From contig JAUIET010000004.1 of NCBI GenBank assembly GCA_030429735.1, positions 1 through 64,000 on the forward strand: a DNA stretch of 64,000 bases, written 5' to 3'. Source of the stretch: Gammaproteobacteria bacterium (GTDB lineage: Bacteria; Pseudomonadota; Gammaproteobacteria; Pseudomonadales; JAUIET01). The notes below the pieces were generated by a model, which was not told the origin of the DNA, did no database searches, and worked only from the letters and a program-made list of their open reading frames with translations. The position numbers and the translations under genes are program-made. The first letter of the stretch is position 1, and the number at the start of each line of letters is the position of its first letter. Shown here one piece after another: positions 39,456-60,052 of this stretch.

Positions 39456-41171
39456 CTATGGTTTTGGCGCGTACGTTTCCCTGAGCTCTTTCTTCAATAT
39501 TTTCCCGGACGGGTTGCGAGGCAGAGGATCATCCCGAATCCAGATATAGCGAGGTACTTTAAATCGTGCCAGCTGCTCCGAGACTATCTGGCGCAGCTCG
39601 CCTTCGTCCGCACTTTCGCCTGGCTTTAAAACGACTGCAGCACCCACTTCTTCTCCCAAGCGTTCATCGGGAACGGCAAAGACCCCCGCTTCCATCACGG
39701 CGGGGTGATGGAAGAATGCGGCTTCCACCTCGGCGGGATACACGTTCTCGCCACCCCGGATCACCATGTCTTTGGCTCTATCAGATAGGTAGACATAGCC
39801 TAGCTCGTCGGTGTAGCCAATATCACCCGTGCAGAACCAGCCGTCTTTGAAGTCTTCTTCATTCGCGTCTGGTCTATTCCAGTAACCGTCAATCACCGCG
39901 ATGGATTTAGCCCACAATACACCGGCTTCATTTGCAGGCAATACATTACCTTCATCGTCTCTAGCCTGAAGTTCCACAATCGGATGGACGAAGCCGGCGC
40001 TGGTCGGATTTGCTTCCATTGCTTTGCCTGTGAACGAGCAAATAGAGGTATTTGTTTCAGTCAGTCCCCAGCCACAGCCTTGATAAGGGGACTCTACTTT
40101 TTGTGAAATCAGCTCTGTTACCTTGGGTGGTGTCGCTGAGCCGCCAGCGCCAATGTTAAACAAACTGGAGGTGTCGGTTCGGTCAAAGCTCGGAGAGTTA
40201 AACACCTCTTGCAGCATGGCTGGAGCAACACTGAATATAGTCAGCCGCTCCTGTTCGATGAGCTTTATGGCTTTCTCCGCATCCCATTTATACATCATGA
40301 CCAATTTTCGACCGCCGCGTAGGCCGAGCAAAAAACTGGCATGCAAGCCGCTCATATGAAACAGGGGAACCGCCAATAACCCAGCCTGATCATACCCTTT
40401 TTCCAGCATTCGCCCGACGGCTTCCGGGTTGCACATCGAGCATGCATACGCATTTACGTCAAAGCTGTACATGGCTTGGCTCAAGGAGCGATGGGTTGTC
40501 ATCGCCCCTTTAGGCCGCCCGGTTGTGCCAGATGTATACAGCATCATGAATAGATCATCAGGCGACACCTCGGGCAGTGCCGGACGCTGGCCCTGATGTT
40601 GGCTTAACAGTGCTGACCAGGAGCTTACCTTGGGCTGACTCAGCAATTGTTCATTCGTTCGCACAGCAATTGCCTGAACACCGAGCTGCGCCAGATCGTC
40701 CACGATGTACGACAAGCGCTGCTCGTCGATGATGACCAGCTTGGCGTCGCTGTCCGTCAGTCCATACTCAAGCTCCGGTCTTTGGCCCCAGCTATTGAGA
40801 GGCACAGCGGTGGCACCCGTGTATGCAATGGCCAGGAAACCCATAATCCATTCGGGGTAATTACGCATTGCGATGGCCACGCGATCCCCAATACCAATGC
40901 CAAAGTCTGTGATCAGAGCGTGCGCCATGGCATCGGCTACGGCGAATACCTCGTTGTAGGTGTAGCGTTCGCCTTCGTAAACCAGAAAATCTTTGTCTCC
41001 ATGGGCGCGACCGCTTTCCAGGTGCGCGACCATGGTATCCGGCGCGTTTTTGTAGATGGTGTACTCGTGACCTTTGTGTTCCATGACACCCAGTTCAAAC
41101 ATCGCGCCTTCTTTGGTCAGTTCGGCAATGGCGTTATCGTACTGCTCTTTGTGTTCGGCAAGTGTTGTCAT
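39456..41171 (-). CDS. Long/medium-chain acyl-CoA synthetase (AMP-forming)
   Basis: This 571-residue ANL-family enzyme has MLYTSGTTGRPKGAMTTHR, a GWGLTETN adenylation motif, FCTGDIGYTDE and the C-terminal RNPSGKILKKELRE with the catalytic lysine. It should activate a fatty or cyclic carboxylic acid to its CoA ester. It lies 8 bases downstream of the cytochrome P450 gene in the same leftward operon, so the acid may be the product of P450 oxidation. A steroid or terpenoid acid is possible, as in CYP125-type systems, but is not shown. Confidence 0.92.
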   Translation of the reverse strand: MTTLAEHKEQYDNAIAELTKEGAMFELGVMEHKGHEYTIYKNAPDTMVAHLESGRAHGDKDFLVYEGERYTYNEVFAVADAMAHALITDFGIGIGDRVAIAMRNYPEWIMGFLAIAYTGATAVPLNSWGQRPELEYGLTDSDAKLVIIDEQRLSYIVDDLAQLGVQAIAVRTNEQLLSQPKVSSWSALLSQHQGQRPALPEVSPDDLFMMLYTSGTTGRPKGAMTTHRSLSQAMYSFDVNAYACSMCNPEAVGRMLEKGYDQAGLLAVPLFHMSGLHASFLLGLRGGRKLVMMYKWDAEKAIKLIEQERLTIFSVAPAMLQEVFNSPSFDRTDTSSLFNIGAGGSATPPKVTELISQKVESPYQGCGWGLTETNTSICSFTGKAMEANPTSAGFVHPIVELQARDDEGNVLPANEAGVLWAKSIAVIDGYWNRPDANEEDFKDGWFCTGDIGYTDELGYVYLSDRAKDMVIRGGENVYPAEVEAAFFHHPAVMEAGVFAVPDERLGEEVGAAVVLKPGESADEGELRQIVSEQLARFKVPRYIWIRDDPLPRNPSGKILKKELRETYAPKP

Positions 41172-41179
41172 GTGAAATC

Positions 41180-42400
41180 CTATCGGCTTGTTAGTATCAC
41201 CGGCATTTTTTTATAGCCATTGATATTATTCGATCGTATGCGAGAAGGCTCGCCATTTAATTCTATTCGCGAGAAATTCTTGAAAAACTCTTCGAAAAAC
41301 AATCGCGCTTCCATTCGAGCGAGATTTGCGCCCAGACACAAATGAATACCGTAACCAAACGCCATATGAGGATTGTGTTGGCGTTTTATATCAAACGTCA
41401 TTGCATTGTCGAATTCATCTTCATCGAAGTTGGCCGAGCTGTACATCATCACCACGCGGTCACCTTCGCGAATTGTGCACCCGGCCAGTTCAGTGTCGCA
41501 GGTGGCGGTGCGCCGAAAATAGTGCAGTGGGCATGTCCAGCGCAACATTTCCTCTATCGCCGTAGGCAGGCCAGCGGGTGTTGACTCGAGTTCAGCATAA
41601 AGTTCCGGTCGCTGAACTAATTCATACATGCCGCTGCTGATAAGGCCGCGAGTGGTTTCATTGCCGGCCACGGTCAATTGCACAAACAACGAGGCGAAAT
41701 CGACTTCAGACACCGTATGCCCATCAACCTCGCTTTCCAGCAATTGGCAAATCAGATCATCACCACCGCTGGCCTTGCGCTCAACGGCGAGCTCGAAACC
41801 ATAGGTGCCCATATCGATGGATGCTTGCTGAATTTCTTCATCAGAGCCACCTAAATCAGGGTCGGAGCCCGCGGTTTGTTTATCAGACCAGTGTCGTATT
41901 TGGGTCCACATGTCTTGCGGTATGTCCAATATTGAGCAAATAACCGCGGTTGGCAACTCGCAGGCCAGGGATTCGATAAAATCGGTTTCGGTTTTATCGC
42001 GCGCGGACTCCACAACGCTGCGTGCGATATTGTGTACTTTTGGCTCTAGCGCGGCCAGCATGCCGCGCGTGAAATGCGTGATGACCGCGCGTCGAATCGG
42101 TCCATGGTCCGGTGGGTCCATGCCCAGTAACTGGCTTTGCGTGCGCTCCAGAATGTCCGGCGGCAAGTCGTCCACCATCACAAAGCCTTTTTGTGCACTG
42201 AAGGTTTTGTGATCGCGAGCAACCTGCATAACATCAGCGTGCTTGCTGACCACCCAATAACCTCCACCATCCGGGTGCTTGTGCCAGAAAACGGGTGCAT
42301 TTTCACGTAGCCAGGCAAATTGCTGGTGCGGAATACCCTGCAGGTAGTTGTCCGGGTTATAAACGTCTATTGAATCTGCTGTCAGCGTCGAGTTGTTCAT
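41180..42400 (-). CDS. Cytochrome P450
   Basis: This 406-residue soluble bacterial P450 has the I-helix AGNETTRG oxygen-activation motif, the K-helix EMLRW (ExxR), and the heme loop FGYGIHLCLGANLAR with the axial Cys. The sequence style resembles CYP125/CYP142/CYP124 enzymes that oxidise the terminal methyl of sterols or branched lipids, but the match is from memory. ATG 42400 is preferred; an upstream ATG at 42430 is also in frame. It precedes an acyl-CoA ligase by 8 bases. Redox partners are not in the window. Confidence 0.92.
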   Translation of the reverse strand: MNNSTLTADSIDVYNPDNYLQGIPHQQFAWLRENAPVFWHKHPDGGGYWVVSKHADVMQVARDHKTFSAQKGFVMVDDLPPDILERTQSQLLGMDPPDHGPIRRAVITHFTRGMLAALEPKVHNIARSVVESARDKTETDFIESLACELPTAVICSILDIPQDMWTQIRHWSDKQTAGSDPDLGGSDEEIQQASIDMGTYGFELAVERKASGGDDLICQLLESEVDGHTVSEVDFASLFVQLTVAGNETTRGLISSGMYELVQRPELYAELESTPAGLPTAIEEMLRWTCPLHYFRRTATCDTELAGCTIREGDRVVMMYSSANFDEDEFDNAMTFDIKRQHNPHMAFGYGIHLCLGANLARMEARLFFEEFFKNFSRIELNGEPSRIRSNNINGYKKMPVILTSR

Positions 42401-42488
42401 TGCGTGCTTGTAAAGACATGGCTGATGCATTTTAACCGTTGACGGCGTATTCTGCCCACCAGGATGACGGTCATTGACGGAGGATTAG

Positions 42489-44538: not shown

Positions 44539-44689
44539 TGTCGTTTCCAGAGGGTTGGCTGTGTTTGTCATACGCCCAACCGGCATTTTACCGCGGGGAC
44601 GCGGGTGATATTACAGCAAAGTCACTACAGCGGCATGTGTGTTGCTAAGGCCTTATAATTTGTTCATCTTCCCTCATGCCGAGCCTCCC

Positions 44690-46690
44690 ATGCGTATACA
44701 AGAATCCCTTGCCCGGCTGACTTACGCAAGTGTCTGTTTGCTGCTCGCAGGCTGCGGAGATCCGGCGGCACCACTCAGTGATTTCACCGTTTTGGAGCAT
44801 GTGTCAGATACCCAGTCTCCGGTTCGCCCGTGTACCCACTACAGCGCCACCAAGAAAGCGTACTTCGGTGATCTGCATGTCCATACTGCATTATCCAATG
44901 ACGCATATTCGTACGGAAGCCGGGCTACGCCGGACGACGCGTATCGCTATGCCTTCGGGCATGGCGCCATCTCATTGCCTGTTAATCGGGGAGACACAGA
45001 ACTAACTCGATCGGTTAGCATCGATCGCCCGTTGGATTTTATGGCGGTAACGGATCATGCGGAGTTCTTGGGCGAACAGACGCTGTGTCAAAACCCGGAG
45101 CTTGCGAAAACTGCGGAATTTTGTGATGCGTTCGAAGAAGGTGAGGGGCGTAACCCTAAGCTGCTGGCGAAGATATTCAGTCCGTTCCCGGCACGCGATG
45201 ACGAAGTGTGTGGTGAAAACGGTGAGCGCTGCAAAAATGCAGCGATAACACCCTGGAGAGAAGCGATCGCGGCGGCGGAGGCGTGGAACGATGTGAGTGA
45301 CGCTTGCGAGCGTAGCACTTTTGTCGCGTTTGAATACAGTTCGGTTCGGCTGGGCAGTAATCTGCACCGCAATGTGATTTTCCGTAGCACCCGGGTGCCT
45401 CAGCGTCCGATCAGCTATCTCGATGCACCACGGGAATGGCGGCTCTGGGAAATACTTGATAAAAACTGTTTGGGTGACAAAAGTGGCTGTGATGTGCTGG
45501 CCATTCCACATAACTCCAATATCAGTAACGGGCGCATGTTCGCGGTGGATTACGCCGGTGCTCGCAGCAAAGCAGCGCAAGTGGAGCGCGTCGAGCTTCG
45601 CCGACGTATCGAACCGGTTGTTGAAATTATGCAACACAAAGGTGATTCCGAATGCCGAAATGGCATAACCGGCGTGCTTGGCGGAGAAGACGAGCTGTGC
45701 GATTTCGAAAAATTTGAAAACCTTGCATTCAAGGCGGTTGCCGGTACAGAAGATATTGATGATTGCTATACGGGCCCTTTCGCCGACTATGTGCCGCATA
45801 AAGGTCCCAATTGTCTGTCGCGAAACAGCTATGTACGTTATGCGCTTATCGAGGGAATGAAAGAACAAGAGCGTATTGGCGTCAACCCGTTTCAGCTGGG
45901 AATCATGGCGTCAACCGATACTCATAACGCGATGGCTGGAGGGGTACTTGAGCAACGGTTCGCTGGCCACTTGGGCTGGGGCGATGGTACCGCGGAACGG
46001 CGCGTGACGTACAAGACCGAAGTGCCGGGGAATACAAGCAATAATCCCGGCGGGCTGATCGGTGTGTGGTCCGAGCAGAACAGCAGAGAAAGTTTGTTCG
46101 ATAATATTCGCGCAAAAGAAGTGTTTGGCACCAGCGGCCCACGTATTCAGCCTAGGTTTTTTGCGGGTTCTGATTTTTCCTCCAAGCTGTGCAGTGATGC
46201 GTCCATGCTTGACTATGCCTACGCTAACGGTGTGCCGATGGGAGGAGAGTTAGATGCTAGTTCAAGCTCGCCAATGTTCCTGGCCAGTGCACTGGCGGAT
46301 TCGGGCACTACTGCGTACCCTGGCACACCGCTGCAGCGCTTACAGATGATCAAGGGCTGGTACGATGAGGATGGCAACCATCATCAAAAAGTGCATGATA
46401 TCGCTGGTGATCCTGATAATCAGGCAAGGGTAGATCCTGAAACCTGCGAGCCGCAAGGTGCCGGGTTCGATCAACTGTGCGCCGTCTGGCAAGACCCGGA
46501 CTTTAAACCCGGCCAAAGAGCTGTTTACTACTTACGCGCTGTGGAAAATCCAAGTTGCCGCTATAGTGCACGACAATGCTTGACGTTTTCAGCGGATCAG
46601 CGGCCTGCGGATTGTGACAACGACAGCGTTGCAAAAACGATTCAAGAGCGAGCCTGGAGTTCGCCTATCTGGTACAGTCCTGAGACGTGA
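44690..46690 (+). CDS. DUF3604 family lipoprotein
   Basis: This 666-residue protein begins with a lipoprotein signal peptide ending LLLAGC, so it should be anchored to a membrane after lipid modification at Cys. The mature part has a PHP-like metal pattern: FGDLHVHTALSND, TDHAEFLGEQ and a later STDTHN. DUF3604 proteins are common in marine gammaproteobacteria, and their substrates are not known. A phosphoesterase or related hydrolase activity is only suggested by the fold-like motifs. The start is chosen from the lipobox. The end overlaps the convergent MATE gene by 26 bases. Confidence 0.85.
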   Translation: MRIQESLARLTYASVCLLLAGCGDPAAPLSDFTVLEHVSDTQSPVRPCTHYSATKKAYFGDLHVHTALSNDAYSYGSRATPDDAYRYAFGHGAISLPVNRGDTELTRSVSIDRPLDFMAVTDHAEFLGEQTLCQNPELAKTAEFCDAFEEGEGRNPKLLAKIFSPFPARDDEVCGENGERCKNAAITPWREAIAAAEAWNDVSDACERSTFVAFEYSSVRLGSNLHRNVIFRSTRVPQRPISYLDAPREWRLWEILDKNCLGDKSGCDVLAIPHNSNISNGRMFAVDYAGARSKAAQVERVELRRRIEPVVEIMQHKGDSECRNGITGVLGGEDELCDFEKFENLAFKAVAGTEDIDDCYTGPFADYVPHKGPNCLSRNSYVRYALIEGMKEQERIGVNPFQLGIMASTDTHNAMAGGVLEQRFAGHLGWGDGTAERRVTYKTEVPGNTSNNPGGLIGVWSEQNSRESLFDNIRAKEVFGTSGPRIQPRFFAGSDFSSKLCSDASMLDYAYANGVPMGGELDASSSSPMFLASALADSGTTAYPGTPLQRLQMIKGWYDEDGNHHQKVHDIAGDPDNQARVDPETCEPQGAGFDQLCAVWQDPDFKPGQRAVYYLRAVENPSCRYSARQCLTFSADQRPADCDNDSVAKTIQERAWSSPIWYSPET

Positions 46691-53142: not shown

Positions 53143-53179
53143 CTATACTTCATGTTCTTATACAAGTAGCGGAGTGGCA

Positions 53180-54055
53180 ATGCGCTATACGCTTCGTCAG
53201 CTGGCAATCTTTATTGCGGTTGCAAGACATCAAAATATTTCCAGAGCCGCGCTTGAGCTGCACATGTCCCAGTCTGCGGCCAGCGAGGCAATGCTCAAAC
53301 TGGAAAATACCTATCAGCTGGAGTTATTCGAGCGCAGCAAGAATCGCTTACTACTTACTTCGGTGGGCGAGTCACTGCGGAAAGAGGCAGAAAGTGTGCT
53401 GGCAAGCTGCCAGACATTGGAGCAAAGCTTGCGCGGCCATAAAAGTATTGGCCATCTCACGGTCGCTGCCAGCTACACCATAGGTAATCATCTGGTGACA
53501 CGGTATCTGGCAGGGTATCTGCGGGATTTTCCAAACGCTGATGTTCAGCTTGAGGTCGCCAATACGCCGGAGGTGGCGGCTAAAGTACTGAATTATGAAG
53601 TTGACATTGGCATGATCGAAGGCGAGGTGCAGCATCGTGATCTGGAGTTGATTCCGTGGATCAAGGATGAGCTTGTCGTTTTTTGTGCGGCGGATCACCC
53701 TTTGGCACGACAGGGAAAACTGACCGCGCAGGACGTACGTACGGTCAACTGGATCTTGCGTGAACCTGAGTCAGGCGCCAGGCACACACTGGATCGGGCG
53801 CTGGAAGAATTGCTGCCAACTATGAATATTTATCTTGAGTTAAAGCACAATGAGGCGATCAAGAATGCGGTAGAGACGGGCTTAGGCATTGGTTGTCTTT
53901 CCAGAATTGTGCTGCAAAAGAATTTTGATAGCGGCGATCTTGTACCGCTGGCACTGCCAAGGCGAGATATGAGCCGCACTCTGTATTTTGCCCTGCCAAA
54001 ACAAAGAGCGCAGTCTGATGCGGTGCAGCACTGGATGGATATATGTAATCGCTGA
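53180..54055 (+). CDS. LysR-family transcriptional regulator
   Basis: This 291-residue protein has an N-terminal winged HTH (about 1-65, LRQLAIFIAVARHQNISRAALELHMSQSAASEAM in pieces) and a C-terminal periplasmic-binding-like effector domain. GGAG five bases before ATG 53180 favours it over the in-frame GTG at 53174. Being divergent from cysC-sat, it may regulate sulfate activation, though the sequence style is closer to CbbR/YeiE-like than to CysB by inspection. Confidence 0.9.
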   Translation: MRYTLRQLAIFIAVARHQNISRAALELHMSQSAASEAMLKLENTYQLELFERSKNRLLLTSVGESLRKEAESVLASCQTLEQSLRGHKSIGHLTVAASYTIGNHLVTRYLAGYLRDFPNADVQLEVANTPEVAAKVLNYEVDIGMIEGEVQHRDLELIPWIKDELVVFCAADHPLARQGKLTAQDVRTVNWILREPESGARHTLDRALEELLPTMNIYLELKHNEAIKNAVETGLGIGCLSRIVLQKNFDSGDLVPLALPRRDMSRTLYFALPKQRAQSDAVQHWMDICNR

Positions 54056-54368: not shown

Positions 54369-55178
54369 TTACTCGTCTTTGAATTCCGGGGTACGACCCT
54401 GTTTACGCGCCCTGATCGCTTCTTCAAAGTTCTGTGTCGTCATACGCACAAACAACTGCGCATGGCTTTCATGATTCATGTGCGAATGCAGGCTTCCCGC
54501 TTCGAGCCCAGCGTTCAACATCTGCTTGCTGAGTTCCACACCCAGCCGACTGTGCCGCTGAATTTGCTCAGCGACCACCAGACATTCGTCCAGCAAATCG
54601 GCGTCCTGCGCCACGCATTGAGAAACAATGCCTTTTCGTTCCGCCTCCAGCCCGCCGACGTCTCGCCCGGTCAACATGATTTCGTTGGATGCCGACGAGC
54701 CAATAGCGCGCGGTAACAAATAACTCAGCCCAAGTTCAGCGGAGGTGAGCCCGTTGTTGATCCCTGCGGCACGGAACACCGCTGACTCGACGCAAAGCCG
54801 AATGTCGGCGGCCATCGCCAGACAGAACCCGCCACCAATGGCGGGTCCGTTAACGGCCGCGATCACAGGCTGATGCATATCTCGAATGGTCTTTATAACC
54901 TCATCCAGCACTCGCATTGCACGCCGGGATATTCCTGGCACCGTTAGGCCGTTAAATATATCCAGCCAGCCCGGGTCTTGTAAGTCAGCGCCGGCACAAA
55001 ACGACGAGCCTGCACCAGTGATTATCACAACCCTGACACTGTTGTCATAACAGATGTCTTCAAGTTGTTCGCGAAACGGAATCATCACATCAAACGCCAT
55101 CGCATTCATGCGGTCTGGGCGGTTCAAGGTAACCAGCTTGATTCCGGGTTTGGGTTCGGTGACGTCTACGAACGGCAT
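54369..55178 (-). CDS. Enoyl-CoA hydratase/isomerase family protein
   Basis: This 269-residue crotonase-fold protein hydrates or isomerises unsaturated acyl-CoA. It has the oxyanion-hole segments GSSFCAGADL and AVNGPAIGGGFCLAMAADIRL (shortened). The catalytic Glu position of the second helix and DVGGLEAERKGIVSQ are consistent with a hydratase. It is the last gene of a leftward operon with two thiolase-fold genes and two DUF35 genes, suggesting side-chain beta-oxidation of a ring compound or lipid. Confidence 0.9.
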   Translation of the reverse strand: MPFVDVTEPKPGIKLVTLNRPDRMNAMAFDVMIPFREQLEDICYDNSVRVVIITGAGSSFCAGADLQDPGWLDIFNGLTVPGISRRAMRVLDEVIKTIRDMHQPVIAAVNGPAIGGGFCLAMAADIRLCVESAVFRAAGINNGLTSAELGLSYLLPRAIGSSASNEIMLTGRDVGGLEAERKGIVSQCVAQDADLLDECLVVAEQIQRHSRLGVELSKQMLNAGLEAGSLHSHMNHESHAQLFVRMTTQNFEEAIRARKQGRTPEFKDE

Positions 55179-55220
55179 GGGGTTTCCCTTGGCAAGCGTT
55201 GGTGATTAGTGGCTCTAGCG

Positions 55221-56378
55221 CTAAGGCTTCTCGCTACTAACAGCCCACATCGCAAAAAACTGTGCGCTTGCTCCATAAGCGTGGCCAACTGCCATTTTCG
55301 CACCTTCCACCTGATGCTCACCCGCCGTTCCACGTACCTGCATAGCTGATTCCGCAAACCGTATCATCCCGGAAGCGCCAATAGCATTGGTTGACAGTAC
55401 ACCACCCGAGCAGTTGAACGGAATTGAACCGCCAATTTCAGTTTCGCCCGCTTCGGTCAGTTTCCACCCTTCGCCTTCATCTGCAAAGCCCAGGTTTTCA
55501 AGCCACATAGGCTCGTACCAGCTAAACGGCACATACACCTCAGCCATGTCCACTTCCTTGCGAGGGTTGCCGATGCCTGCTTGCGCATATACATCTTTCG
55601 CGCATTCGCTGCCAGCCAGAGGGTTCACCTCGTCACGCCCCTTGCATGTCATGGTCTCGCTGCGCATTGCCATACCTCGAATCCAGGCAGGTTTATTCGG
55701 CCCTTTTGTTGCAAGCTCCTCGCTGGAGATAACCAGCGCGCAGGCCCCGTCTGAACTGGGGCAGCTTTCAAGAAAGCGTATCGGATCCCACAGCATGGGT
55801 GATTCCATGACCATTTCCAGCGAAATATCAGGAATTTGCAAATGCGCCAGTGGGTTCTTTAACGCGTTTTTGCGATCCTTTACTGCCACCATTGGTCCAA
55901 CATGCGCGGGTGCGCCTGAGCGACGCATGTATTCCCGAATATGCGGAGCGAAGTGACCACCCGCGCCCGCGTTCAGATGCATCGAGAAGGGCCTGGGAAT
56001 AGACAAAGCCCACATCGCATTGGATTCGGACTGCTTCTCGAAGGTGACCGTCAGTATTCGATCAAAGGTGCCGCTGGTTACATGCGTGGCCGCAACAACC
56101 GCGGTGGAGCCGCCAACGCTACCCGCAGTATGCACTCGCAACATAGGTTTACCCACGGCACCCAGGGCGTCGGCCAGATAGAGTTCTGGCATCAATACGC
56201 CTTCAAACATATCGGGTGCCTTGCCGATCACGACCGCGTCTATATCGTCCCAGCCCAAGCCAGCGTCTTCAAGCGCACGGCGTGCGGCTTCATTCACGAG
56301 GCCTCCCATGGATACATCTTTGCGGGCCGACCGGTACTCGGTTTGTCCAATACCTACTACAGCAGCTAAACGACTCAT
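55221..56378 (-). CDS. Thiolase-fold acyltransferase-like protein lacking the usual cysteine
   Basis: This 385-residue protein has the thiolase fold, beginning MSRLAAVVGIGQTEY. The nucleophilic cysteine found in NxxCASG of normal thiolases is replaced by HTAGSVGGST (about residues 81-90). The C-terminal GHAYGASAQ also lacks the second cysteine. This resembles the Ltp2-type aldolase partners and SCP2-like proteins that work with DUF35 proteins. ATG 56378 overlaps the next thiolase-like gene stop by 4 bases. It may act in a retro-aldol step rather than thiolysis. Confidence 0.85.
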   Translation of the reverse strand: MSRLAAVVGIGQTEYRSARKDVSMGGLVNEAARRALEDAGLGWDDIDAVVIGKAPDMFEGVLMPELYLADALGAVGKPMLRVHTAGSVGGSTAVVAATHVTSGTFDRILTVTFEKQSESNAMWALSIPRPFSMHLNAGAGGHFAPHIREYMRRSGAPAHVGPMVAVKDRKNALKNPLAHLQIPDISLEMVMESPMLWDPIRFLESCPSSDGACALVISSEELATKGPNKPAWIRGMAMRSETMTCKGRDEVNPLAGSECAKDVYAQAGIGNPRKEVDMAEVYVPFSWYEPMWLENLGFADEGEGWKLTEAGETEIGGSIPFNCSGGVLSTNAIGASGMIRFAESAMQVRGTAGEHQVEGAKMAVGHAYGASAQFFAMWAVSSEKP

Positions 56379-57433
56379 GATACTGCCTCCAAAACGGCGA
56401 CCAGATTGTGTTGCAGGCAAGAGCCCGAGGTAGCGTGGGCGACACCGCGGGTATATCGCCCGGATTGGATCATTTTTGCTGCATGACCAATACGATCCAG
56501 ACCAGCGGCCATCATCGTATTTGCGGCCAGCGCGCCTCCGGATGGATTGATATCCACCGAGGCATCCAGGCCAAGCGCTTTCTGCAGCAATATTTCCTGA
56601 TGACTGAATGGCGCATGCAATTCGGCGAACTCCACCGGTTTACTGCCAACCCCGGCAGCCTTACCGGCAGTTTCTGTCGATCTGGATACCGTGAGATCGC
56701 GCAAGGTTGGCATGGAACTCTCAATACGGTTATCCAAGCCGGATATCACCACCGGTGTATCGCACCATTGCCGAGCTTTCTCGGGCGTGGCAATAATCAT
56801 GACCGATGCACCATCAGTAATAGGTGCGCAATCGTGCATCCGTAGAGGTGACACAAAGGTCGGCTCGGCAAGCAACTCTTCGATGCTGTAATCACCGCTG
56901 AGCTGCGTGCCCGCTACCGATTTGGCGTTGGCTCTGCTGCGTGACACCACTGCCGCCATATCGGCTTCGCTCAATACACCCTTGTCCAGGCATTGTGCGG
57001 CTTGTAAAGCGGCAGCGCTGATCGTATCCAGCCAGAGTGGAGCAAGATAGTAAGGGTCAAGTTGCAGGCTCAATACCGAGCGCAGGTCGCCCGGCGATGA
57101 TTTTCCAAACCCATAAATCAACGCAGAGTCGGCTTCGCCGGTTCGGATTTTTAACACAGCTTCATAGAGTGCCCATGCACCATCCATTTCAACGTGCGAT
57201 TCTTTAATCGGCGGGAAAGGTCCAACGGCTTCGATGGCTTCAACAAATGCAAACGCTGCACCTGCCAGGTAGTCGCAACTACCGGAGCACACGAAGTCCA
57301 TATCACTGAGTTCAACACCTGATTCTTTAATTACGCCCTGAATTACGCTTTGCAGCATTTGCAGCTCGTTAGTCGCAAGTGAGTCGCGAGTCGCAGGCGT
57401 TTGTTTGTAGTTAACTATTGCTACATCTCTCAT
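56375..57433 (-). CDS. Second thiolase-fold protein, cysteine-less active site
   Basis: This 352-residue protein has the thiolase layout, with AIVNYKQTPATRDS at the N-terminus, PITDGASVMII, AELHAPFSHQE and NPSGGALAANTMMAAGL. The nucleophile position reads EMDGAWAL instead of a Cys-containing loop, so thiolytic activity is doubtful. It overlaps the other thiolase gene by 4 bases and follows a DUF35 gene after 3 bases. The pair probably forms a heteromeric complex with the DUF35 proteins. Confidence 0.83.
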   Translation of the reverse strand: MRDVAIVNYKQTPATRDSLATNELQMLQSVIQGVIKESGVELSDMDFVCSGSCDYLAGAAFAFVEAIEAVGPFPPIKESHVEMDGAWALYEAVLKIRTGEADSALIYGFGKSSPGDLRSVLSLQLDPYYLAPLWLDTISAAALQAAQCLDKGVLSEADMAAVVSRSRANAKSVAGTQLSGDYSIEELLAEPTFVSPLRMHDCAPITDGASVMIIATPEKARQWCDTPVVISGLDNRIESSMPTLRDLTVSRSTETAGKAAGVGSKPVEFAELHAPFSHQEILLQKALGLDASVDINPSGGALAANTMMAAGLDRIGHAAKMIQSGRYTRGVAHATSGSCLQHNLVAVLEAVS

Positions 57434-57436
57434 AAA

Positions 57437-57946
57437 CTATGCCTCCTTCGCCAGTTCTTCGGCCAGCGCATCGGCTTTGTCGATTGGTGCGAAGAAATGT
57501 ATGTTGGCAGGTGAGTGAGTGCGCTCAGCTTCGGGCTTCCAGACAGCTTTGACCCGCATGCCGATGTCTATGTCGTCGTTGTCGCAACCACTGATCAGGT
57601 GCAAAAACGTAATGTCTGCGCCATCAAGAAGAATATTGGCAACCACGAAGGGTGGTTTGATGGGGTTATCCGGAATTGGAATATGAACGATCGTGTACCA
57701 GTGAACCTTGCCGGTGTCGGGCAGTTCAACCAGTCGCTCTGCCGGCAGGCCGGTTTCCGGGCAGACGGGGCGAGGCGGCACATACACTGGCGCCCCTTCA
57801 CTCACCTGGCTGCCAATAAACTGGCCATTCCTGATTGACTCAAGGAAGCGTGAGGTGTGGTCCGAGGCAGTGAACCGATAGTCGAGATTTACTGGCGCGT
57901 ACATAATGTTGACGCGTTCTGCATTGGGGTCTTTTTTCTCAGCCAT
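57437..57946 (-). CDS. DUF35 OB-fold protein, copy 1
   Basis: This 169-residue protein has the DUF35 arrangement: an N-terminal rubredoxin-like segment (VPPRPVCPETGLPAER with two Cys-like positions reduced to one) and a C-terminal OB fold, GKVHWYTIVHIPIPDN and VANILLDGADITFLHLISG. DUF35 proteins bind acyl-CoA and partner with thiolase-fold aldolases. The zinc ligands appear degenerate. It lies between the second DUF35 gene (2-base gap) and the thiolase pair. Confidence 0.83.
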   Translation of the reverse strand: MAEKKDPNAERVNIMYAPVNLDYRFTASDHTSRFLESIRNGQFIGSQVSEGAPVYVPPRPVCPETGLPAERLVELPDTGKVHWYTIVHIPIPDNPIKPPFVVANILLDGADITFLHLISGCDNDDIDIGMRVKAVWKPEAERTHSPANIHFFAPIDKADALAEELAKEA

Positions 57947-57948
57947 GT

Positions 57949-58398
57949 TCAGGCTCCTGTTACGTCAAAGGCGACGATGTCAGTCATGGTACCGCTTCGC
58001 TCGTCTGCCCAGCGCGCCTTCACTCTGCTGCCAACACTGATCCTGGCTTCATCACCGCAGTCGACCATATGAATAAAGTCGGTATCGGCACCATCCAGGC
58101 GGATGGTAGCGAATGCGAACGGGTGTTGGATATGGTGATGCTTGATTGGGTTCTTGACCCAACAGAAGCTGGTGACCGTGCCCTGATCGCTGACATCAAC
58201 CATTTCACTAAGTGGTTCTGTGGTAATCGGGTCGAATTCCATGGGTGGCACCAATGTGCGGCCATCGCTGCCCTTGATGCCTAGAATCTGTTTCTTGTCG
58301 CGCAATGCCGTTAGAAAGTCGCCGATTACAGGCCCGGTGGAACGGGTGTACGTGTAATGGACGCTGAAATCTTCCTGCATGATTTCTGGTGAGTTCAA
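57949..58398 (-). CDS. DUF35 OB-fold protein, copy 2
   Basis: This protein of about 149 residues has the OB-fold segment GTVTSFCWVKNPIKHHHIQHPF and FATIRLDGADTDFIHMVDCG, parallel to the first DUF35 copy. It lacks a clear Cys4 zinc ribbon. The start is probably TTG at 58398 with AAAGGA seven bases before it; ATG 58380 is the alternative. The two copies suggest a heterodimeric subunit. Confidence 0.8.
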   Translation of the reverse strand: MNSPEIMQEDFSVHYTYTRSTGPVIGDFLTALRDKKQILGIKGSDGRTLVPPMEFDPITTEPLSEMVDVSDQGTVTSFCWVKNPIKHHHIQHPFAFATIRLDGADTDFIHMVDCGDEARISVGSRVKARWADERSGTMTDIVAFDVTGA

Positions 58399-58495
58399 TG
58401 TTCTGTCCTTTGCTCTATGAGATCGGGGAATTGAATACGGTTCGACAGTGAATATCGCATTTACTGGCGCGCCGTGAATCCATCCTTGGAGGCTT

Positions 58496-58519
58496 GTTGA
58501 AAAGGTTCCTCTTTTCAAC
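58496..58519. repeat. Perfect 9-bp inverted repeat in the DUF35 upstream gap
   Basis: GTTGAAAAG (58496-58504), GTTCCT, CTTTTCAAC (58511-58519) forms a perfect 9-bp stem. It lies about 90 bases after the acetoacetate decarboxylase-like gene and about 100 bases before the DUF35 start. There is no T-tract. It may be an operator or a processing stem. Confidence 0.4.
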
Positions 58520-58605
58520 GATCATTAACTGCGACATTCTCTATCGAACCTTACTTGGGTGCGTTACTAAATTCTGAATGGCTATTTGTCAGTTGATTGG
58601 CTAAA

Positions 58606-59373
58606 TCAAGTAGAACGCTTTGGCCCGCCATTTTGCCCAGGCCACCGAGAACCGGAAATAACATCCAGATGTGGCAGAAAGGCCTCAGGATCGAGCTGGC
58701 CAGCCAGATTAATTTCACGATCAAGGAATATTGGCCACCACAGATGCGCTGACAGCTGTTCGCGCATCGGCAGCAGGGTAGCTATCGGATCCCAAGGGCT
58801 GGGATGCAAGACGAGCTGACCATCAACCGCTTCGCGGTGCGCAGTGCCGTACTTGCTGCGCACATGCACAACATGTGGCGGAAAGTCGTACTCCTGCACC
58901 GGCATCACGGCGGCTTTACGGGATACTTTTATCCACCACTCATGCTGTTCGAACTCGTCTTGCGGTTCGTTTTGGCCGCTGGACACGCCACTGAATTCAA
59001 CGAATGTATAACCCTGGTGCGAACAACGCGCTGTTACGTTATTGCCCATACGGTAGTAAGTAGTGTCACAAGGAAACTTTGGCTGCCCGTTGGTTTGCTG
59101 ACTGGTGAAGATGGCCGACTCCTGATCAATGCCGTAGCCCAGTGTGTACTCGCCAGCGATACCGTTATAGTCGGCGTCTACGGTCATGACAATGCCGTAC
59201 TCGGGTTCGTCGGGCACCGGGAAGTTATAGATAGTGACATTCACATTGGGGTTGGCGCCTGGTTCGATCCCCGGCGGTAACAGAGCAGCGATCTTGTCTT
59301 TATCGGTGCGATAAACAATTTTCAACATGGGCCAGTTGACGATGTCACCGGTATTGCCTTGTGGTGAAGACAT
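58606..59373 (-). CDS. Acetoacetate decarboxylase-family protein
   Basis: This 255-residue protein matches the acetoacetate decarboxylase fold, with LLPPGIEPG, VDADYNGIAGEYTLGYGID and a candidate catalytic Lys99 in GQPKFP. In classical decarboxylase the Lys is followed by a second Lys (PKK) that lowers its pKa; here that position is Phe. A different carbonyl chemistry such as decarboxylation, dehydration or aldol reaction is possible. GAGG precedes ATG 59373. It is upstream of the DUF35/thiolase operon and may be part of it. Confidence 0.83.
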   Translation of the reverse strand: MSSPQGNTGDIVNWPMLKIVYRTDKDKIAALLPPGIEPGANPNVNVTIYNFPVPDEPEYGIVMTVDADYNGIAGEYTLGYGIDQESAIFTSQQTNGQPKFPCDTTYYRMGNNVTARCSHQGYTFVEFSGVSSGQNEPQDEFEQHEWWIKVSRKAAVMPVQEYDFPPHVVHVRSKYGTAHREAVDGQLVLHPSPWDPIATLLPMREQLSAHLWWPIFLDREINLAGQLDPEAFLPHLDVISGSRWPGQNGGPKRST

Positions 59374-59596
59374 GATGTTTCCTCTCAGAGTGTTGATTGC
59401 TTGATCAGCGGCTATCTGCCGACAGCGCAATTCATTGATCTGCGCGGCAGCTTACCTAACAAAGCGTAACCAAAGCCTGTTGGCTTTCGCTTTACCTGGG
59501 CGGTGCAAGCACCATAGGATGAGCCGAATAGACCCATGCTACCCAAGGGCCGGTAGGTATTCCAAGTTAACTAAAAGTTACCCGGAGGAACATTGT

Positions 59597-60052
59597 ATGC
59601 CATTGTCTTTACAGCAAATTTCCGATCGAATCGAGATTGAGGACCTGATCTGGCATTATTCTGACATTATCGACCGCAAAGCATTTGATGAGTTGCGCAG
59701 CGTGTTTACTGAAGACGCGTTCATAGATTACAGCGTTTTTGGTGGTTCCAAGGGAAACCTGGAAGACACCATTACATTTTTGCACGGGGCGATGGGGGCT
59801 TTTCCATATACCCAACACCTGAACGCGAATATGCAAGTGACATTAGATGGTGACACAGCCAAAGGCCACATTATGTGCCTGAACCCGCAAGAGATGGCGA
59901 CGGGCGAGGGCAGTAATCACACCTGGATGCTGGGGCTGTGGTACAACGACGTCTATGTGCGCACCGCGGATGGTTGGCGCATCAAAGAACGTGTCGAGCA
60001 GCGTAGCTGGAAATTCAATACGCCGGAGTTTATGTCATTCCTGGATGAGTGA
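59597..60052 (+). CDS. SnoaL-like/NTF2-fold protein
   Basis: This 151-residue protein has the SnoaL-like pattern: LQQISDRIEIEDLIWHYSDIIDRKAFDEL in pieces, FTEDAFIDYSVFGG, and C-terminal strands DGWRIKERVEQRSWK. The IEDLIWHY...DR...D core is common to hydroxysteroid isomerase- and dehydratase-like proteins of sterol and aromatic pathways. GGAGGAA before ATG 59597 is a near-ideal ribosome binding site. It is divergent from the acetoacetate decarboxylase-like gene; AAAGCC-TGTT-GGCTTT at 59472-59487 in the gap may be an operator. Confidence 0.85.
   Translation: MPLSLQQISDRIEIEDLIWHYSDIIDRKAFDELRSVFTEDAFIDYSVFGGSKGNLEDTITFLHGAMGAFPYTQHLNANMQVTLDGDTAKGHIMCLNPQEMATGEGSNHTWMLGLWYNDVYVRTADGWRIKERVEQRSWKFNTPEFMSFLDE

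Follow-up and report, generated by a model that had tools for sequence, protein, structure and literature searches.

What is the function of two thiolase-like proteins that both lack the catalytic cysteine and are encoded beside two DUF35 proteins in a gammaproteobacterial genome? The question is raised by six minus-strand genes at 54369-59373 of contig JAUIET010000004.1, of which the first 64,000 nt (the window) were analysed; the genome spans 5.0 Mb in 24 contigs. In order of transcription, the genes encode an acetoacetate decarboxylase (ADC)-like protein, DUF35 proteins a and b, thiolase-fold proteins of 352 and 385 aa, and a crotonase. A first-pass annotation had proposed a DUF35-associated aldolase for the CoA esters of steroid side chains, perhaps a new aldolase or decarboxylase system. 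The first part is most likely right, given the Ltp3/Ltp4 models, synteny and host steroid genes described below; the claim of novelty has to be given up, since the core is a known family, Ltp3/Ltp4. We consider it likely that the four core genes encode an Ltp3/Ltp4-type aldol-lyase that cleaves the C24-branched side chain of sterols and releases propionyl-CoA. Within this analysis the proposal is based on gene identity, a near-universal four-gene architecture, loss of the nucleophile, the thiolase fold and the steroid genes of the host; the assignment of Ltp3/Ltp4 as an aldol-lyase and the C24-branched substrate come from the literature.

Alignment with 6hsj, an SCP2 thiolase, and with solved structures related to it locates the thiolase nucleophile. 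At this site the 385-aa protein carries Gly86, invariant in 77 of 77 relatives, and the 352-aa protein Glu82-Met83, invariant in 85 of 85. Both proteins are thus cysteine-less, as first described; a conserved cysteine at the nucleophile, which the first-pass annotation had named as an observation that would count against it, is absent from both alignments. Cysteine occurs elsewhere in the nucleophile loop in 7 of the 85 Ltp4-type rows, and at positions 82-83 in none. The GHP histidine of thiolases is Asn331 in the 385-aa protein and Asn305 in the 352-aa protein. The HDCF motif of SCP2 thiolase reads YVPF in the former, where Tyr282 is invariant, and HAPF in the latter, where His273 is kept in 72 of 85 sequences. 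The nucleophilic cysteine, the GHP histidine and the second catalytic cysteine of a functional thiolase have therefore all been replaced in both proteins.

The fold itself is retained. AlphaFold2 models of the 352-aa and 385-aa proteins (mean pLDDT 86.7 and 85.4) are both thiolase folds. Superposition with VIA-align matches the 352-aa model to the archaeal thiolase 6esq (Z 43.6, rmsd 2.1, 341 residues aligned) and to Ltp2, 6ok1 (Z 36.6, rmsd 2.6, 328 aligned); the corresponding values for the 385-aa model are Z 52.6, rmsd 2.1 and 372 aligned, and Z 46.5, rmsd 3.0 and 368 aligned. Both models also align well with PhlC and BbsB, which like the archaeal thiolase are DUF35-associated, and this resemblance might suggest an acyltransferase or degenerate thiolase complex, similar to PhlABC or benzoylsuccinyl-CoA thiolase, with thiolytic or acyl-transfer chemistry. 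The window pair does share the fold and the DUF35 partnership with PhlABC, BbsAB and the archaeal thiolase/HMG-CoA synthase complexes, but those enzymes possess the catalytic cysteine, and PhlABC, benzoylsuccinyl-CoA thiolase and the archaeal thiolase family use it as a nucleophile. Its replacement in every relative aligned, together with the steroid gene context, makes such chemistry very unlikely.

The family to which the pair belongs is indicated by profile models and gene order. The 352-aa protein (56375..57433, minus strand) scores 475 bits against NCBIfam PRK07937 (cut-off 419), and the 385-aa protein (55221..56378, minus strand) scores 674 bits against PRK08313 (cut-off 514). Pfam matches the latter to Thiolase_C_1 (8e-33); the former lies below the Pfam gathering threshold (26 vs 28 bits), yet above the NCBIfam cut-off and with a thiolase fold. 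The same two models are matched in a Nocardia locus (L075), where a fused DUF35 gene, PRK07937 and PRK08313 lie divergent from a TIGR03559 “F420_Rv3520c” gene, with a FadA5-type steroid 3-ketoacyl-CoA thiolase nearby. This is the order of Rv3520c/Rv3521-Rv3522(ltp4)-Rv3523(ltp3) in the KstR regulon of M. tuberculosis (PMC1995591, PMC6429209). Model membership and synteny thus indicate that the window pair is most likely Ltp4 (352 aa) and Ltp3 (385 aa).

Neither protein belongs with Ltp2, whose model PRK07855 (cut-off 469) gives them 156 and 35 bits. The phylogeny against Ltp2 that had been proposed as a check agrees: a 34-protein tree sets the Ltp3 and Ltp4 groups apart from Ltp2 and unites the two with moderate support (87/87). 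Given this support value, and because several rows from the window's own genome have long branches, of which one, L183, is a doubtful open reading frame (ORF), the tree is used solely for the separation from Ltp2. Three papers (PMC6678751, PMC4761994, PMC6593523), all with reference to Wilbrink et al. 2012, assign the cleavage of C24-branched sterol side chains to a heteromeric Ltp3/Ltp4 aldol-lyase, and in a Mycobacterium phytosterol induced ltp3/ltp4 about 97-fold (PMC6593523).

The gene set surrounding the pair is remarkably constant. One scan of public genomes yielded 80 loci from Pseudomonadota, Myxococcota, Chloroflexota and Actinomycetota, picked by similarity to the 352-aa protein, so that the genomes are not a random sample; their neighbours were clustered from codon-model gene calls. 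The order DUF35a-DUF35b-Ltp4-Ltp3 recurs throughout, with DUF35b present in 80/80, DUF35a in 77/80 and the 385-aa partner in 79/80; the missing genes fall at contig ends. DUF35a and DUF35b are fused into one protein in 20 loci (16 of the 80, and four from a plasmid collection), and a Tsukamurella plasmid carries an annotated fused DUF35 in the neighbourhood of a P450 and a steroid 3-ketoacyl-CoA thiolase. The doubled thiolase and DUF35 set pointed out in the first-pass annotation is therefore real but not distinctive: the Ltp3/Ltp4 family has this architecture throughout. Two public metagenome-assembled genomes (MAGs) with the cassette, titled Klebsiella pneumoniae (L018) and Bifidobacterium breve (L082), look mislabelled.

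In the window the DUF35 genes adjoin the thiolase genes, as had been noted, but precede rather than follow them in transcription. DUF35a (57949..58398, minus strand, 149 aa) has a TTG start with AAGGA 7 nt upstream and is without zinc-ribbon cysteines; its domain assignment, Pfam OB_ChsH2_C at 9e-10, was scored on the longer ORF 58518-57949. DUF35b (57437..57946, minus strand, 169 aa) matches the same domain at 1e-12. The core genes are separated by 2 bp and 3 bp and then overlap by 4 bp (ATGA), a spacing suggestive of coupled translation. The cassette probably encodes a functional unit of four polypeptides, made up of two different cysteine-less thiolase-fold subunits and two different DUF35 proteins and maintained in several phyla, and such a conserved unit should be straightforward to reconstitute.

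A plausible reaction sequence can be outlined. The two cysteine-less subunits would form a heteromer stabilised by the two DUF35 OB-fold proteins, giving a four-polypeptide complex that may be a heterotetramer. Its substrate would be a 24-hydroxy-24-alkyl-sterol-26-oyl-CoA derived from phyto- or mycosterols. Tyr282 of the Ltp3-type subunit aligns with the catalytic Tyr294 of Ltp2, to which Tyr302 of Sal is equivalent (PMC12329534); by analogy it could serve as the base that deprotonates the C24 hydroxyl. Retro-aldol cleavage of the C24-C25 bond would then yield a CoA enolate and a 24-keto side chain, and protonation of the enolate would give propionyl-CoA. The conserved Glu82 and His333 of the Ltp4-type subunit may assist. 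The ADC-like and crotonase genes would be accessory steroid-catabolic genes that became attached in the window's genus.

Comparison with characterised aldolases shows both kinship and divergence. With the Ltp2-ChsH2(DUF35) aldolase 6ok1 the window proteins share the thiolase fold, the absence of a nucleophilic cysteine, the DUF35 partner and, in the 385-aa subunit, a tyrosine at the tyrosine position of YDHF; they differ in comprising two unlike thiolase-fold subunits and stand-alone DUF35 proteins without zinc-ribbon cysteines. The bile-acid aldolase Sal-Shy(DUF35), 9myr, is likewise proteobacterial, cysteine-less and DUF35-associated, with glycine at the nucleophile site (PMC12329534), but Sal is a single subunit with a YDCY motif in place of YVPF/HAPF, and its DUF35 is fused to a MaoC hydratase. 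The closest likeness is to actinobacterial Ltp3/Ltp4 with Rv3521-type DUF35 (R. rhodochrous; M. tuberculosis Rv3521-Rv3523): the same two NCBIfam models, the same gene order, two DUF35 units and steroid-degradation genes in the genome. In the gammaproteobacterial host, by contrast, the DUF35 units are separate genes, no Rv3520c-type gene, a neighbour characteristic of the actinobacterial clusters, lies beside the cassette, ADC-like and PRK05864 crotonase genes are attached, and FadD-EchA19 is unlinked.

Several points weigh against the proposed aldol-lyase. The catalytic acid Tyr344 of Ltp2 and Cys304 of Sal have no counterpart in the 385-aa protein in the alignment. The identification as Ltp3/Ltp4 passes through model membership and synteny rather than direct alignment with a named sequence. 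The aldolase activity of Ltp3/Ltp4 is itself a matter of genetics and proposal in the cited papers, not of a purified enzyme; neither a structure nor a purified activity was found in the literature examined. Finally, relatives of the cassette reach distant phyla, where the substrates may differ.

The last point bears on the nature of the substrate. It is conceivable, if rather improbable, that the same type of retro-aldolase acts here on another branched CoA ester, such as a terpenoid, a hopanoid or a different steroid side chain. Loci in Myxococcota, Chloroflexota, Acidimicrobiia and Streptomyces surround the cassette with differing neighbours, and in the window's own genome it lies beside different genes and is unlinked to the FadD (PRK07798)-EchA19-ECH module found at C5. 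In gammaproteobacterial relatives of the same order the FadD(PRK07798)-EchA19 module directly follows the Ltp4-Ltp3 cassette; the two halves have thus come apart in the window's genus. Set against a non-sterol substrate are the other steroid genes of the genome. A KshA homologue adjoins an HsaC-like dioxygenase and an HsaA-like monooxygenase (414 bits, model cut-off 450), and a separate Ltp2 orthologue (470 bits to 6ok1) is accompanied by ChsH1/ChsH2 homologues. Ltp4-type protein and Ltp2 occur together in 12 of 15 genomes of the order (Fisher p 4e-9), which also speaks for sterols. Seventeen P450 matches exceed the family cut-off in the own genome, and one more is weak, with a stop. From these genes the host appears to be a steroid-degrading bacterium. 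The cassette is also present in the cultured relative Kineobactrum sediminis (L020) and in a Sterolibacterium MAG (L012); S. denitrificans reportedly uses sitosterol, stigmasterol and ergosterol (PMC11061730). Outside Actinobacteria the cassette could serve as a gene marker of phytosterol degradation.

What is new at this locus is that a known core system stands in a proteobacterial setting and has genes for an ADC-like protein and a non-classical crotonase attached to it. The first-pass annotation had joined these two neighbours to the core; both are real, but they are not part of the conserved unit. The ADC-like gene (58606..59373, minus strand, 207 bp upstream of DUF35a) encodes 255 aa with a Pfam ADC domain (7e-36) and a candidate Schiff-base lysine, Lys99, in GQPKF. 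Lys99 is conserved in a 14-homologue alignment and aligns with the PK lysine of the ADC 3bgt in a weak phmmer match (E 0.007). Domain and lysine place the protein in the ADC superfamily with 3bgt and MppR; it differs from the solved members in that this weak match is the best one and in its steroid-gene context. Classic ADC has PKK where the window protein has PKF.

Among the loci and relatives examined, the ADC-like gene adjoins the cassette only in the window's genus (G000 and G001/L007); of the public loci, that of the closest relative alone shows this arrangement, and the idea that the gene is a constant part of the cassette was rejected. In the relatives set, 13 of 95 genomes, including the window's own, have a homologue; at 1e-40 there was none among 298 further Pseudomonadota genomes that were sampled. 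Co-occurrence with Ltp4 (11 of 13 genomes, p 1e-9) is about matched by that with Ltp2 (11 of 13, p 1e-8), which weakens a specific ADC-Ltp4 link; since the genomes are related, both p-values assume more independence than there is. Where the gene is not beside the cassette, its neighbours in several genomes are a KshA-like Rieske oxygenase, a short-chain dehydrogenase/reductase (SDR) or an amidohydrolase, and in two (G030, G068) Ltp2 lies within a few kb. Judged by this distribution and these neighbours, the protein probably belongs to steroid catabolism. It may add a step to the breakdown of sterols, with a beta-keto product as its possible substrate. A second ADC-like gene, 66% identical, lies at G000 C17:279235-279981 (L137:9197-9991), among genes for a sulfatase, DUF3604, an amidohydrolase, a KshA_C Rieske oxygenase, an SDR, an acyl-CoA dehydrogenase-like protein and LysR regulators.

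A tighter connection between the two enzymes can be envisaged. It has been proposed in a review that carboxylation at C28 precedes Ltp3/Ltp4 cleavage (PMC6678751). In a route akin to leucine catabolism and HMG-CoA lyase, the 24-alkyl branch would be carboxylated and the intermediate hydrated, and Ltp3/Ltp4 would release propionyl-CoA and a steroidal beta-keto acid, a product that the ADC-like enzyme would be well placed to decarboxylate. The same-strand position of the ADC-like gene upstream of the cassette, its conserved lysine, its tendency to occur in genomes with steroid genes, its absence at 1e-40 from the 298 other genomes and seven carboxyltransferase-domain matches in the own genome are all consistent with this scheme. 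On the other side, the association with the cassette was seen in one genus only, 207 bp separate the gene from DUF35a, the gene elsewhere keeps company with the Rieske, SDR and amidohydrolase genes or with Ltp2, to which it is tied about as well as to Ltp4, the ADC superfamily includes non-decarboxylases, and the linked crotonase lacks the hydratase glutamates. The scheme is rather improbable. If true, it would bring the ADC superfamily into sterol catabolism, a role on which literature searches for an ADC in steroid degradation returned nothing relevant.

The crotonase gene (54369..55178, minus strand) begins 42 bp downstream of the core and encodes 269 aa matching PRK05864 (382 bits, cut-off 337) and Pfam ECH_1 (2e-45), with 3sll as best PDB match (8e-100). 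Cys119 and Gly139 occupy the two columns of the hydratase glutamates, where an EchA19-like protein (L020) has Glu. With both catalytic glutamates absent it is not a classical enoyl-CoA hydratase, and a role as the pathway's hydratase should not be taken for granted. Glu148 lies a little downstream of Gly139. As with the ADC-like gene, the linkage of a PRK05864 crotonase to the cassette was seen in no examined locus or relative outside the window's genus.

The six genes are flanked by a divergent SnoaL_4 gene (59585..60052, plus strand; Pfam SnoaL_4 3e-30), which adjoins the ADC-like gene in L007 too (proteins 85% identical), and by a convergent LysR-type regulator (53174..54055, plus strand; Pfam LysR_substrate 1.5e-49). 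Elsewhere in the window, 39456-42430 (minus strand) encodes a CoA ligase whose best steroid-specific model is the steroid-24-oyl-CoA synthetase CasG (403 bits, cut-off 750), with an adjoining cytochrome P450, and a DUF3604 gene lies at 44639-46690. Further thiolase-DUF35 pairs occur at G000 C2:407000-424000 (L087; PRK06158, 409 bits, cut-off 421), near a 4-hydroxy-2-oxovalerate aldolase and a CoA ligase, and at G000 C15:363000-380000 (L090), where a divergent Ltp2-like paralogue (PRK07855, 360 bits, cut-off 469) has its own DUF35 gene. Two long ORFs of 725 and 630 aa, with no Pfam match at the thresholds used, precede ChsH2-ChsH1-Ltp2 at L089:2697-6766.

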